Part shown: positions 4,790 through 50,589 of the stretch, piece after piece | Layout: each line of letters starts with the position of its first letter | Numbering within the stretch: position 1 is the first letter of the stretch | NCBI GenBank assembly: GCA_022453515.1 | Contig: JAJNNY010000023.1 | Coordinates: 434,001 to 498,000, forward strand | Direction of reading: 5' to 3' | Source: Astrocystis sublimbata | Taxonomy: Eukaryota > Ascomycota > Sordariomycetes > Xylariales > Xylariaceae | DNA: 64,000 nucleotides | Translations under genes and position numbers: made by a program | Notes under the pieces: generated by a model | What the model was told of the DNA's origin: nothing | Database searches by the model: none | What the model saw: only the letters and a program-made list of their open reading frames with translations

Positions 4790-7310
4790 TCAAGCCAGAC
4801 CTCCGTCCTCGACCACTTTCTCGGTCACCTTTCCGTCAGCTTGTACGACCACCTTGACAACGTTCTTTGAAGCCTTGACCGGGCTCGGCTGATTATAGAC
4901 CCATTCCAGCTCCTCAAGCGTGCGACCCTGTGATTCCACACTTTAGGAAGGCTGTTAGCATTGTTCACATGGGGAATGCGAGAATAAAGTACTAGGTAAG
5001 TAGCTAATACAGAACCAGGAGATAGATATCTTACCCCAAGATGTACCATGCGGCTGTCTCAATCACATCCCAACCCACGAAAACAAAAATGTACTTGTAC
5101 CCGATGTTCTGCAGAGCAATGGGGCCGGCGAACTGATTGATAAAGCCTACGAGGTTCACGAAGACGGCAGACGCTGCCAGGCCCTTTGCTCGCATGGTTG
5201 TCTCTAACGCCTCAGTGGGTATCACCCCCTGTAACGGGGTGTAGCTGAATGAGAAGACGATGTTGAACAGAAAATATCTGCGTGCCATGGTTAGTTAGTA
5301 CGTGTGCCGTGGCGTTTGCTGCAAAGTCTTAGGCGGACTCACGACGCCAGCGCACCCTTGGCATAGGAGCCCTGAATATTATCCCCTTGGGAGTCTAGTG
5401 CGCTGCTGAGACCTGCATTCAGCGCAAGAGAAACAGCACATGCTTTTTTCCGCGCAAAGGTTAGTAAATTCAATATCCATGCTGGAGACGGGGACTTACC
5501 GAATGTGCCATAGATCAACACCGGACGACGATGCATCTTATCTGTAAGCAAGGTCCCTGTAATCGCCCCAACCGCACTCAGGAAAGAGTTCAATAAGTTG
5601 TAGCCGAGCTGTTGCGAAACTGTTTTAGCTCCAATGTTCTCAAAAATGGTCGCATTGAAGTAGCCGAGTCCGTTTCCAGAGAACTGCCCGAAGACGGAGA
5701 TCACTGCAACCGCTGGAGTCAGTAATTGCCTTCTACACTAAGAGAATTATGTCCATGAAACAGTGGACTGCAGGTGTCTCGGGAGTAAAGATATCTGTTG
5801 GGGCAATTCATCCTCCCGAGACTTGCCAAAAGGGTGGAATGGATGACTCCAAGAATTGCATACTGATGACCTGCGCGAACCGCCAACGGCCGTTATGCGT
5901 CAGGAAGAACGGACGATCTAGCGTAGTACTTTAGCGGCCCAATAGTTTGATCCAGAGATAACTTCAGACTGGTACTGACAATCCCACGGTGTCTTATCGA
6001 TGCCATCAATTCTAATATTTTCTCTCCACTCCTCGATTTCCAGACGCACTAAGCGGGAGTTCGGGTCGCCATTGCCGTGATACTTCACGAGAAATTCGAG
6101 AGCCGCGTCGGTCTTCCCGTTGGCCATGAGAAACCGAGGGCTCTCGGGGATGAACCAAACAGTTAACATCACGATCAAACTAGCGAAAGCTTGAAGCAGC
6201 AGAGGTATCCTCCAAGCCCAATTACTTGGGATGTATTCAGTTCCGAACACAATCGCAGCAGCGGGGATAGATCCGCCAAACCACCCACAATTATAAAAGC
6301 CTCAAACTTCCAAGTCAGCGAGCTGCGGCAAGAAAAAAGAAAGAAATTCATATCACTTACCGGTAGCACGGCCGCGCCAGTGAGGAGGGGAGATCTCCAT
6401 AGCATAGGCTGGGGCACTCACTGTCACAATTGCAATCTATAGCACCTTCGAGTTAGTGCTTCCGATTACATGAAATACATCTTGACTCATGATCCGTAAC
6501 CTTGATATTCCAAGAACGTCATGTACTGACGAAAACAGTCCATGTTTGTGAAGCATGCCAAAAGGAGCAGTAGGAACACCAGCAGGTACGTACGGCAACG
6601 CCGAGAACAAACCGTCCTACAACGAATTGAGGAATAGTCGAGCTACTCGCAATAATAGCAGTGCCGATTATAATGATGAAACATCCGATGAACATTGCCT
6701 TACGACGCCCGAGTTTATCGGACAAGACAGCTGCGAAAGGTGCACCGACGATTGAGCCCCTGTAAGAAAACAACACAGATCAGCGTTGTATGTTGTTGTT
6801 GCCTCAATGAGGTCAAACTTACACCGTATATAGAGAGAACAGCAATGAGACTGTTGGCCCAGTTTTGCCGCTATGGAACACGTCCTGGAACTGTTGCATA
6901 GCAACAATACCGGTGAGCAGGGAGCCTAAAGAAGCCCGCATTAGGTAAGTATATTTGTCATGATCGGGAACAGGCAGAGGCTGGAAACCTCACTATCGTA
7001 GCCGTTGGCGCACGCGCAGAGAAATGCAGTGAAAATAGCCACTATGTGAGTTATTAGCCATCTCAAAACCCCCGGGGTTGGTAATGGCGTTGTAGTTACA
7101 GTATATAGTTCGTGATTCTTTACTCCAGGGTTTAATCCGGGACTCTTGCAGTGCGGCAAACAATTCTGCGTTGTGAACTTCCTTGGATGTTGCACCCGCA
7201 TTATTGGCAGTCTTGCCAGTGCCTTCGCTCACGACAACCTGAGTTTCGGGTTCAATTGACGATCTGTCCGTCGCACCGGTACCATGTTCGTTGGGCTTTG
7301 AGCCTCTCAT
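4790..7310 (-). CDS. MFS sugar transporter (hexose/lactose permease-like)
   Basis: Eleven exons (minus strand): 7100..7310, 6994..7041, 6925..6823, 6759..6594, 6436..6361, 6300..5980, 5917..5864, 5703..5500, 5442..5343, 5277..5035 and 4940..4790, giving 558 aa with all phases consistent. It matches the fungal sugar-porter branch of the major facilitator superfamily in the plasma membrane. Family signatures visible include CANGYD in TM1, SDKLGRRKAMFIG in the TM2-3 loop, the RFVLG stretch, PESPRFLM after TM6, GQFSGNGLGYF in TM7 and DKMHRRPVL in the TM8-9 loop. The C-terminal tail carries ESQGRTLEELE, close to the usual E-T-K-G version. Substrate is likely a mono- or disaccharide but cannot be specified. 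The start at 7310 is the first ATG; the few codons upstream in frame lack ATG. Intron 7 (5704..5863) is an introner-like element, described separately. Confidence 0.9.
5704..5863 (-). mobile_element. Introner-like element A (intron 7 of the sugar transporter)
   Basis: A 160-nt intron with donor GTATGC and acceptor GTTGCAG, in phase 1 (ATC A / TG ATC). Its sequence is clearly homologous to the intron at complement 50021..50177 in an unrelated gene. Shared blocks in sense order are GTATG near the donor, TGGAGTCAT, ATTCC, TTGGCAA-like, CTCCCGAGACACCTGCA, and a 3' block GGCAATTACTGACTCCAGCG. The 5' TTGGAGTCA and 3' TGACTCCA are inverted repeats. The ACTGAC inside the 3' repeat fits a branch point 21-22 nt before the acceptor. 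The other introns of this gene are about 50-100 nt and unrelated. Confidence 0.85.
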
Positions 7311-16207: not shown

Positions 16208-17868
16208 ATGTCAACTTCCGACTCCTCGGCTGGCAACAAGTTGCCTCGTATGCGAGTCCGTGAGCTCCTACCAAATGTTCACTTCGGAGACTGGGCGCCC
16301 GGGCCCCTGAATTCTTTGACCGACGTGCCTGGGGTCTTAGTCCACACCCAAGAGATCCTATCCGACGATGGCAATGTGAATACAGGTGTGACGAGCATCC
16401 TACCAAGACATGACGTATGTACTGTCGATGATGCAAATGATCCCCAGAAATGCACTGAAGAGCATGTCTGATTCTCAAAACACCTGAAAGCTCCCTCGTC
16501 ATCAAGGAATCCTTGATTTTGAATGATAGTTACTGATTCCAGTGATCAAAGTGGTTCCATCAAGCATGCTATGCAGGTCTCTTCAGCTTCAACGGATCGG
16601 GGGAAATGACTGGCAGCCACTGGATCAATGAGACTGGGTTGTTACACTCGCCGATCATCATCACCAACTCTTTCGCCGTCGGAGCTGCGTACCAAGGGCA
16701 AGTATTTTGATCCATTCAAGTTCGTTTACTATAAGATGGACATTTTGCGTTATGGCCACTAACAGTTCCTTGCTATTTGTAGCATTTACGAGTATGCGAT
16801 CAAAGCCCAAAAGTCGGCGGCAGGCAATGTGGATTGGTTTCTACTGCCCGTTGTGGCGGAAACATTTGACGGGTATCTCAATGACCTCTCGCAATTCCCG
16901 ATTACCCCAGCACACATTGTGAAGGGCCTCGAGAGTGTATCCAGCGAACGCGTCCGTGAGGGATGTGTAGGCGGAGGTACAGGGATGATTTGCCGTAAGT
17001 GAGAGATGTCCATTCTGTTGCTGATCTCAATGGCAATGATGAAGAAACTAAAGCAACCACCACCTTGCTGCCCCTGATTTGAGGTGGACAGCGCTGACAA
17101 CAGCTGGAACAGATTATTTCAAGGGCGGCACAGGTAGCAGTAGCCGTTTGGTGGAAGGGTTTGACATTGAAGGAAAACCCAAGACTTACACTGTCGGTGC
17201 CTTGTAAGGAGATTTCTATATCATAGGACACGTCGATTCTTCTTGTTGGGCAAGGACAGTGTCCAGACCCCACAAAGAGCGCCCGCTATAGCCCCCGACT
17301 AACTTCGAGCAGAGTTCAGGCGAACTATGGAAAGAAGCCTCATTTTCGCATATCGGGCGTGCCCATCGGGAGAATCCTGGCGCGCGAGGAAGCTGAAGCG
17401 GCCGAGCTGGATGCCGAGAAGAAGCGTGCGATGGAAAGTTTGGAGCGGGAGAAGGAGCGGAAAGACGGGAGCATCATCGTAATATTGGCGACTGACGCAC
17501 CCCTCCACCCTACACAACTCCAACGGCTGGCCAAGAGAGCAACTGTTGGTCTTGCTAGAGTAGGCGGACGAGGCCACAACCCCAGCGGCGACATCTTCCT
17601 CGCCTTCTCGACCGGCAACCACATCCAGGTACAGTCTATATCCATGGAGAGACGTACGGTGGATCCTTTCAAGCCCACGCCATATTCAGCGCAGGTGATA
17701 GACGACCAGTCAATCAACGGCCTTTTCGAAGCAGCAGCGGAAGCGACCGAGGAGGCGATCTATAACGCCGTATGTATGGCGGAGACGATGGTCGGGAACC
17801 AGGGACATAAAATCGAGGCGCTTCCGCTTGAGAGGGTTAGGGAGATCATGGAAAAGTTCAGCATATGA
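16208..17868 (+). CDS. Peptidase family S58 (DmpA/L-aminopeptidase D-esterase) protein
   Basis: Five exons: 16208..16414, 16552..16697, 16783..16994, 17113..17203 and 17313..17868, giving 403 aa. The N-terminus has [20 protein letters not shown] and [12 protein letters not shown], typical of the family. Later come [53 protein letters not shown], and [14 protein letters not shown]. In DmpA-type Ntn hydrolases the chain self-cleaves between Gly and Ser, and the new N-terminal Ser is the nucleophile; here that would be G271/S272. The insertion rich in Glu/Lys/Arg before the cleavage site is as in fungal members. Peptide substrates are N-terminal small residues or D-amino-acid amides in characterised relatives. 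Intron 1 looks like a degraded introner and intron 2 is a GC-AG intron (both described separately). Confidence 0.9.
16415..16551 (+). mobile_element. Degraded introner-like element C (intron 1 of the S58 peptidase)
   Basis: A 137-nt phase-0 intron, donor GTATGT, acceptor CAAAG. The last 27 nt align without gaps to the last 27 nt of element A at 18 of 27 positions, with seven of nine differences being transitions; the shared core is TTACTGA-TCCAG. The middle has A-ACACCTG-A near the A/B block GACACCTGCA, and GAAGAGCAT resembles CAAGAGCAT of element B. The 5' part is only weakly alignable. The unusual use of AAAG as acceptor, past an upstream CCAG, is explained if the element's layout was inherited. 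Confidence 0.55.
16698..16782 (+). other. GC-AG intron of the S58 peptidase gene
   Basis: The reading frame of AYQGIYEYAIK is kept only by splicing CAAGG at a GCAAGT donor to CATTTACG after TTTGTAG. The nearest GT (GTATTT, four bases on) gives the wrong frame. GC donors with this GCAAGT context are a known minor class. Confidence 0.8.
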
Positions 17869-49546: not shown

Positions 49547-50589
49547 TCAATCTTCCTGCTTCACCTTGGGTTTCATCGCCGTCGTCGCCTGCCCAAGCGC
49601 CGTCTCCCTCGCATCGTTATTTGTCTCGCGCACATACTCATCCAGATACGCTGGGGTGGCCTTGACTCTATTATACGGGCCCGGCATCGGCTCCCCGTAA
49701 GTATAGTGCACGGGCACGACGCCGGTCCAGACGCTGTCGAGCATGGCCTCGTTCTCGAGGTCGGCCTTCTCGTCGCTCGGCATGCCACTGCGGATCTTGG
49801 CGCTGCCGGCGGCGATCTTGACGCGCAGCACGCTGGTGCTCTGCATCTCGGCGTTGTTGGGCGGCACGCGCGTGTGGCGGTAGCGGTCGCGCACAACGCT
49901 GTCCGTGATGAGCTTCATCGCCCACAGCTTCTCCTCGACATCCGTCACCACCTCGGCGTGCCCAAAAAGTACGGCCGACCGGTAGTTGTAGCTATGCGAG
50001 TTGGGCGTCAGCGACAGCACCTATACCGCTGGAGTCAGTAATTGCCTGTTCGAGTAAAGAAATTGCTCGTGAATCGGGGGTTTGCAGGTGTCTCGGGAGT
50101 GCAGTTACCGATTAGGGTAACTTATGCTCTTGAGATTTGCCAGAAACGGGAATAAATGACTCCAGCGAACTACATACGAGCCCGTCGATGTGGCTCGCGC
50201 CGACGGTGATAGGTAGGCCGCTCGGGGCATCGGCCGAGTCGCCGTTGCTCTTCCGGGACAGGTTGATGATGCGCGACGACACGTAGCCGTGTAAGTACAG
50301 TTCGAGCACCTCGCCGACGTCAGAGCTGGGCCGGGTGAAAGAACCCATTTGTCCTATCATCGGTAGCATCATAGGGAATGGCGAGTCGGGTTGATTGAAG
50401 GATACATGGAGGATGGGACAGGTGTTGACCAGCTCATGGATTGTCTTTAGGGCGTACGTAGCTATCATTCTCATGTCAGTCTGGTCTCATACGGGACACC
50501 CGGTTGCATTTGGATTGGTTACCTCGACCATCGTATCGGTTGACCTTGCTGTAAGGCTTTGTTGGGTATTCTAATGATTCGGACGGCAT
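49547..50589 (-). CDS. FMN-binding split-barrel protein, PNPOx-like (Pyridox_ox_2/NimA-type)
   Basis: Three exons: 50523..50589, 50178..50461 and 49547..50020, giving 274 aa. The N-terminus (YSKVNRYDGRATYALKTIH) and the core ILHVSFNQPDSPFPMMLPMIG, LYLHGYVSSRI, LPITVGASHIDGLVLSLTPN, SYNYRSAVLFGHA and EKLWAMKLITDSVV match fungal flavin-reductase-like proteins related to pyridoxamine-5'-phosphate oxidase. They bind FMN as dimers. The true pyridoxal biosynthetic enzyme is a different branch, so the substrate is unknown. Intron 2 (50021..50177) is introner-like element B, inserted exactly between Leu and Val of DGLVLSLTPN, in phase 0. The last exon is unusually GC-rich. Confidence 0.87.
50021..50177 (-). 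mobile_element. Introner-like element B (intron 2 of the PNPOx-like gene)
   Basis: A 157-nt phase-0 intron, donor GTATGT, acceptor GGTATAG. It is the homologue of element A in the sugar transporter, sharing the 17-nt block CTCCCGAGACACCTGCA and the 20-nt block GGCAATTACTGACTCCAGCG. The ends are inverted repeats: CGCTGGAGTCA at the 5' side (10 nt inside the donor) and TGACTCCAGCG at the 3' side (6 nt before the exon). Eleven bases are fully complementary and the next bases partly so. The element lies in the same orientation as transcription of its host gene. Confidence 0.88.

Follow-up and report, generated by a model that had tools for sequence, protein, structure and literature searches.

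The stretch of DNA analysed here (hereafter the window; 64,000 nucleotides, nt) comprises positions 434001-498000 of contig C106 in the assembly (42.6 Mb, 189 contigs) of Astrocystis sublimbata (Xylariaceae, Xylariales). Two genes of the window, one encoding a sugar transporter and the other a flavin-nucleotide-binding protein, each carry a copy of the same intron, and these copies almost certainly belong to a family of introner-like elements (ILEs), namely GT-AG spliceosomal introns of ~157 nt that have copied themselves into the protein-coding genes of this fungus. The genes, the two copies (assigned to subfamilies A and C, defined below) and the adjoining exon nucleotides are located as follows.

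5031..7300, minus strand: part of the first host gene, a transporter/lactose permease, delimited by comparing reading frames with the deposited protein P0121; the gene runs past both ends of this interval.
5704..5863, minus strand: introner copy of subfamily A in the lactose permease/sugar transporter gene, 160 nt, GT...AG, phase 1.
5702..5703, minus strand: exon nucleotides TG directly 3' of the A copy, forming with the A at 5864 the Met codon A^TG (sequence and homologues).
49547..50589, minus strand: second host gene, encoding the flavin-nucleotide-binding protein, read from the sequence, with two introns of which the second is the C copy.
50021..50177, minus strand: introner copy of subfamily C in the gene of the flavin-nucleotide-binding (PF12900) protein, 157 nt, GT...AG, phase 0.
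50019..50020, minus strand: exon nucleotides GT directly 3' of the C copy, the first two bases of a Val codon (sequence and homologues).

An initial annotation had proposed that these two introns are homologous over nearly their whole length, and both were confirmed from the sequence at those coordinates with GT...AG ends and aligned end to end over 161 columns. The two exact blocks it described are present, although the lengths it gave (17 and 20 nt) were too short, the blocks being 18 nt (ACTCCCGAGACACCTGCA) and 23 nt (AGGCAATTACTGACTCCAGCGGT). The splice sites that it had placed by reading frame also hold. The spliced transporter is 100% identical over 388 query residues to the deposited A. 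sublimbata lactose permease P0121, a protein that requires splicing exactly at 5863/5704, and removal of the first intron joins ...FAQVI-M-ISVFG..., as in the deposited protein. Removal of the second joins ...HIDGL-VLSL..., gap-free around the junction in comparison with 40/40 aligned homologues, the best of which are found in Xylaria and Nemania (~80% identity). A profile search of the whole window retrieved just these two introns and, on the plus strand, a weak resemblance to the family's 3' part (16448-16546, E 5e-5), perhaps a decayed old copy.

Genome-wide searches were performed with patterns allowing up to 3 mismatches, the control being the same pattern read backwards. A 19-mer from the 3' end gave 195 matches vs 9 for its control in the 42.6 Mb, a 28-mer from the 5' part 71 vs 0 and a 21-mer from the middle 113 vs 0, while a DNA-level search that used the first intron as query listed 118 candidates; each of the 40 that were scored matched at 77-100% identity. 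The copy number is on the order of two hundred, with older copies missed by the patterns. Most of the listed copies are full length, and the likeness between copies ends at the splice sites, except for 1-3 exon nucleotides. Across 157 nt no difference separates the copies at two different loci, L003 (an A copy in a 6-phosphogluconate dehydrogenase, 6PGD, gene) and L004, and the closest pair within subfamily C shows 97.4% identity. The initial annotation had anticipated tens to thousands of intron-positioned copies and the recent copying of an intron; the large number of intron-positioned matches supports its introner-like reading and the identical copies support recent copying. This is a real introner family that shows signs of recent activity.

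For the detailed analysis, 91 loci fetched by sequence match were examined together with the window; about 95 of the 195 places, which were counted, and 20 listed ones were left out. The profile search kept 111 stretches, or 101 after removal of duplicates; three of these have no recognisable 3' tail, and a clear donor and acceptor were found in 84 of the remaining 98. Sorted by their ends, these 84 copies fall into subfamilies A (51), B (20) and C (13). In the analysis of target sites four copies were excluded, three having GTCAGT as donor and one abutting the next introner, and another was moved from C to A, leaving 49, 19 and 12 copies, respectively. A fourth subfamily, D, is represented by 25 pattern matches vs 0 for the control, and five further D copies were inspected. 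Copies duplicated with identical flanks were taken out before counting; for example, G000:C95 (~5.9 kb, on a 13-kb contig) and G000:C107 (~516.7 kb) hold the same copy with the same flanks. At G000:C11, positions 39261 (minus strand) and 53851 (plus strand) bear matching motifs in an inverted arrangement, and both cases are possibly duplicated or unmerged pieces of the assembly. Two to three introner copies were also observed within 0.4-2.2 kb of each other at L074 (1416-1819), L014 (1495-2020), L066 (493-2610) and L068 (1437-1930).

The location of the copies relative to coding sequence was assessed from the exon flanks. The best codon frame before the donor was the same as that after the acceptor in 69 of the 79 copies evaluable at 60 nt (the other frames scoring 7 and 3), and after exact removal from GT to AG an equal best frame was found in 59/71 copies at 90 nt and in 55/64 at 120 nt. 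At 90 nt, at least one frame was open across the exact junction in 68 of the 84 copies, vs 30.5% of 3000 random gaps. Frame agreement and open junctions thus indicate that most of the tested copies are sense introns in coding sequence. Fifteen copies failed the strict 60-nt test, about half of which seem in frame when judged by eye, and one that failed it, L030, has a Pfam domain spanning its junction; some of the failures may sit in sequence that is untranslated or has decayed. All ten of the host peptides selected gave Pfam matches, with the domain crossing the junction in nine, and belong to unrelated families (glycosyl hydrolase 43, EF-Tu GTPase, amino acid permease, Na/H exchanger, zinc dehydrogenase, S8 peptidase, arginase, pyridine nucleotide oxidoreductase, dynamin and MFS). 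When the transporter, 6PGD and flavin protein genes were aligned with the best 40 of 120 homologues listed per search (one transporter homologue being that of A. sublimbata itself), no gap was found within 6 residues of the junction in any of the 40. To judge from these alignments and frames, the members of the family are apparently GT-AG introns that are cleanly spliced out.

The exon signature at the insertion sites is subfamily-specific: A lies before T, C before GT and D after (C)AG. In subfamily A the first exon base after the intron (+1) is T in 47/49 copies, the rest being A (47/51 before regrouping), with G at +2 in 34, A at -1 in 24 and C at -2 in 23. The exact 14-mer TCCAGCGGTTGCAG, counted genome-wide and independently of the fetched loci, is followed by T 20 times, by A twice and never by G or C. 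Subfamily C shows G at +1 in 11/12 copies and T at +2 in 12/12, the dinucleotide GT following the intron in 11/12, and in B the +1 base is A in 8, T in 9 and C in 2 copies (n=19). In subfamily D, a G precedes the donor in 23 of the 25 matches to a pattern that itself includes that G; this G is preceded by A in 8/8 distinct copies inspected and by CA in 5.

The codon at the junction is Met in 40/40 aligned homologues of the transporter and in 40/40 of 6PGD, and Val in 40/40 of the flavin protein. The conserved Met codons at these two A junctions imply that A^TG was present before insertion, and such comparisons suggest that the signatures of A and C are older than the introns. Two further A copies reside in one Kv-beta-like (aldo-keto reductase) gene, at residues that are Val and Leu in Kv-beta2, where the second codon base is T. 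The idea that the T was brought by the element, replacing a G of the target, was rejected, as Met, encoded by ATG only, is conserved in 40/40 homologues at the transporter and 6PGD junctions. The conserved junction codons and the lack of gaps imply that insertion added and removed nothing at the tested sites, and that the site is chosen.

A family-wide target-site duplication (TSD) of 2-9 nt was likewise rejected, since neither k-mer nor position-pair tests gave a signal relative to shuffles. Common left/right k-mers of 2-9 nt showed no clear excess (largest z 1.68 in A, 1.83 in B and 2.53, from two copies, in C), and a scan of several hundred pairs of single positions gave scattered values (z up to 3.14) with no consistent diagonal. 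Two of the 84 pooled copies share a left/right 5-mer vs 0.04 expected, which was treated as chance or local repeats. In subfamily A the offsets that keep the frame never yield equal nucleotides, making a duplication impossible there. Base pairing between left and right exon across the intron showed no clear excess over shuffles either, the largest value being that of C at -1/+1 (11 vs 9.1, standard deviation 1.0). As the termini differ between subfamilies and so do the exon motifs, it can be tentatively suggested that the ends of the intron itself encode the choice of target, although we regard this as rather doubtful. If true, the intron, whether acting as RNA or as DNA that is recognised through its ends, would direct its own site of birth, somewhat like group II introns that read exon targets.

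The ends of the introns are also the location of inverted repeats, which are near-terminal, beginning 3 nt inside the 5' end and 1 nt inside the 3' end. In the two copies of the window the following elements were recognised.

5844..5852, minus strand: 5' arm (intron nt 12-20) of the core near-terminal inverted repeat, TTGGAGTCA here and CTGGAGTCA in most copies, with predicted pairing to 5713-5721.
5713..5721, minus strand: 3' arm (intron nt 143-151) of the core inverted repeat, TGACTCCAG, from sequence and predicted fold; overlaps a branch-point-like CTGAC.
5854..5860, minus strand: 5' terminal arm (intron nt 4-10) of the near-terminal stem, TGCAATT, from the predicted fold.
5705..5711, minus strand: 3' terminal arm (intron nt 153-159) of the near-terminal stem, GGTTGCA, from the predicted fold.
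5813..5822, minus strand: 5' arm (intron nt 42-51) of the inner hairpin, from the predicted fold.
5776..5785, minus strand: 3' arm (intron nt 79-88) of the inner hairpin, from the predicted fold.
50157..50165, minus strand: 5' arm of the core inverted repeat of the C copy, CTGGAGTCA, from sequence and predicted fold.
50029..50037, minus strand: 3' arm of the core inverted repeat of the C copy, TGACTCCAG, from sequence and predicted fold.

The CTGAC within the 3' core arm is presumably the branch point. The predicted fold of the L003 copy is -62.2 kcal/mol (z -7.0), a value equalled by 0/200 shuffles; two stems (nt 4-10 with 150-156, nt 12-20 with 140-148) enclose a long inner hairpin, and the ends, GUA (5') and G (3'), are unpaired. 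Predicted folds of the window copies reach -51.9 (5704-5863) and -44.2 kcal/mol (50021-50177), with z -4.0 each. Among 33 aligned A, B and C copies, 94.4% of the stem cells pair, and 15 cells have changed on both sides and still pair vs 3.9 in shuffled and 1-6 in slid versions, relatedness inflating such counts. In the outermost stem of the A copies G-U pairs exceed A-C mismatches (50 vs 11), an excess that probably reflects differences between lineages. A search of Rfam with three loci gave no match above the gathering scores.

Two copies of unusual structure were observed. At L033 (~1467 to 1525) a cropped copy, 59 nt long by hand count, retains both near-terminal repeat arms, and the deletion, examined by eye, seems to lie at a CATTTA microhomology, like that of cropped sister introns of Hypoxylon. 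At L039 (1027-1328, minus strand) introners of 157 and 146 nt directly abut each other, a natural double intron that lacks an intervening exon; the flanking frames join by eye once both are removed, so that one introner seems to have entered precisely at the border of its neighbour.

Taken as a whole, these features are best explained, with somewhat better than even confidence, by an introner-like family that spread through its RNA by reverse splicing. In this proposal the near-terminal stem would hold together the two ends of the excised intron, a reversal of splicing would place it between two nucleotides of another transcript or of a transcribed exon, and the inserted intron RNA would then be converted to DNA. 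The proposal is favoured because reverse splicing would explain the exact GT-AG ends, the sense location in coding sequence and the duplication-free sites; taken by itself, the RNA route appears about evenly balanced. Several observations weigh against it. Inverted repeats, more typical of DNA transposons, are present, and an almost constant exon nucleotide that varies by subfamily is not expected from reverse splicing alone; no single mechanism explains this subfamily-dependent change of motif. Moreover, the core and inner stems of the A copies show no preference for G-U over A-C (24 vs 21 and 63 vs 60), and decay of this kind gives no sign of RNA-level constraint after insertion. A weaker test based on coding scores favoured sense over antisense in only 69/84 copies, with an equal frame in 67/84.

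In the strongest rival explanation the family would be a non-autonomous DNA transposon, like a miniature inverted-repeat transposable element (MITE), that carries splice sites, depends on a transposase encoded elsewhere and makes no TSD, or one of 2 nt in C and D. Near-terminal inverted repeats occur in three subfamilies (A, B and C), full-length copies form the majority of those listed, the (CA)^TG target motif of A is partly palindromic, and the arrangements in C (GT...|GT) and D (AG|...AG) fit a 2-nt duplication that supplies the donor or the acceptor, respectively. Subfamily A, however, cannot carry a duplication, the repeats are offset by 3 nt (5') and 1 nt (3') from the ends, and the tested copies lie mostly in sense coding sequence, a bias that this proposal leaves unexplained. 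A longer autonomous element was considered at three 5' ends that lacked a 3' partner and was rejected, two having a normal 3' end and the third a degenerate one; no longer element was seen at these ends, and no search for a transposase was made. We regard the transposon origin as a serious rival, although a less likely one.

Capture of the excised intron RNA, or of its DNA copy, at random double-strand breaks during repair is considerably less probable. It would account for seamless, duplication-free insertion, and a near-terminal stem could protect the free intron, as argued in the covered passages of PMC12403724, but random breaks do not predict T in 47/49 A copies or GT in 11/12 C copies, where the signature bases were already there before insertion. 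Chance resemblance, gene conversion between two introns or an assembly artefact, to which the few copies with identical flanks (C95, C107) might point, is practically negligible given 195, 71 and 113 matches vs 9, 0 and 0 in the controls, the unrelated host gene families and a likeness that stops at the splice sites except for 1-3 exon nucleotides.

Besides this family, a second one (GTATGTATCAAAACCTGTGG...CTCGACTGACATGTTTTGATATTCGCAG), whose introns resemble one another but seemingly have no relation to those above, was detected at L005 (2613-2761), L055 (from 825) and L099 (minus strand, from 384). It occupies 27 places genome-wide, none of them within the window; 27/27 candidates match at 72-100%, a 20-mer gave 24 matches vs 0 for the control, and its near-terminal repeat (TATCAAAACATG/CATGTTTTGATA) resembles NTIRE-10. 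With two intron families in one genome, A. sublimbata looks like an active place of intron birth and is a useful one in which to study the birth of new introns, and the identical copies suggest recent activity. The origin of introns is an old open question, and for fungal introners the choice between a DNA and an RNA route is still undecided. In the family described here, inverted repeats close to the ends occur together with precise insertion that leaves no family-wide duplication and with an almost constant exon nucleotide that depends on the subfamily, a combination not predicted by the random-break model. Among the titles and abstract openings listed from the open-access literature on introners, on intron gain in Xylaria, on reverse splicing and intron gain in fungi and on A. 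sublimbata, none described the family; the papers listed for introners in Xylariales all treat stwintrons. What is new here is the subfamily-specific target rule, of which no description was found in the literature passages covered.

Among known systems, Spy transposons (PHIS superfamily) are elements with terminal inverted repeats (TIRs) that insert without target-site duplication. In the literature passages covered, PHIS groups differ in their TSDs. Unlike Spy, the Astrocystis element has splice sites of its own, and its tested copies sit mainly within coding sequence in the sense orientation. In the parts covered of Gozashti et al. (2022), 548 introner families were reported in 175 genomes, mostly derived from DNA transposons, with TIRs in 72/177 and TSDs in 49/130 of the families assessed. 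The resemblance is that a repeated element inserted into exons makes introns; set against those introners, the Astrocystis family is an ascomycete one with near-terminal inverted repeats, and the TSD of 3-9 bp of DNA-transposon introners has no counterpart in it, no k-mer excess being found within A, B or C. The main text of that study contains no word starting with "Xylari", although its families may include this genome.

The ILEs of Dothideomycetes (Fulvia fulva, Dothistroma septosporum, Zymoseptoria tritici) are described, in the passages covered, as near-identical canonical introns at new positions, inserted seamlessly, with predicted stable secondary structure or inverted repeats, and in part still active (PMC4457414, PMC8469720). 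The Astrocystis family is alike in its many full-length-similar copies in unrelated genes, GT-AG ends, excision that restores the frame and stable predicted fold, and unlike in belonging to Sordariomycetes (Xylariaceae). PMC8469720, which reports the ILE work of van der Burgt et al. and Torriani et al., attributes to the former a preference for AG/GY sites, vs the Astrocystis signatures ^T, ^GT and (C)AG^ according to subfamily when compared by description.

The closest comparison within the order is with the [D1,2] sister stwintrons and cropped sister introns of Hypoxylaceae and Xylariaceae (Fekete et al., 2021, 2025; PMC12403724, PMC8469720, PMC9024468). In the portions covered, these are described as having proliferated recently, seamlessly and without duplication, with near-terminal inverted repeats that join the ends and with cropped derivatives (PMC12403724, PMC8469720); a stem holding the intron ends together was proposed for them (PMC12403724), as was capture at random double-strand breaks (Fekete et al.), and no exon bias was reported in the passages covered. 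All these features of proliferation, insertion, repeats and cropping are shared by the Astrocystis family, whereas its copies are single canonical introns with a strong exon bias. The GGT start of stwintrons, with a G before the donor, is found in only 7/49 A, 6/19 B and 0/12 C copies. D copies do start with GGT (23/25), and at L097 taking that G as exonic gives a continuous frame by eye. NTIRE-10 (GUAUAAAAAC and its partner) is not the near-terminal repeat of the family, which is CTGGAGTCA/TGACTCCAG. In kind the family is a fungal ILE; it is separate from the stwintrons known in Xylariales and does not belong to their [D1,2] family.
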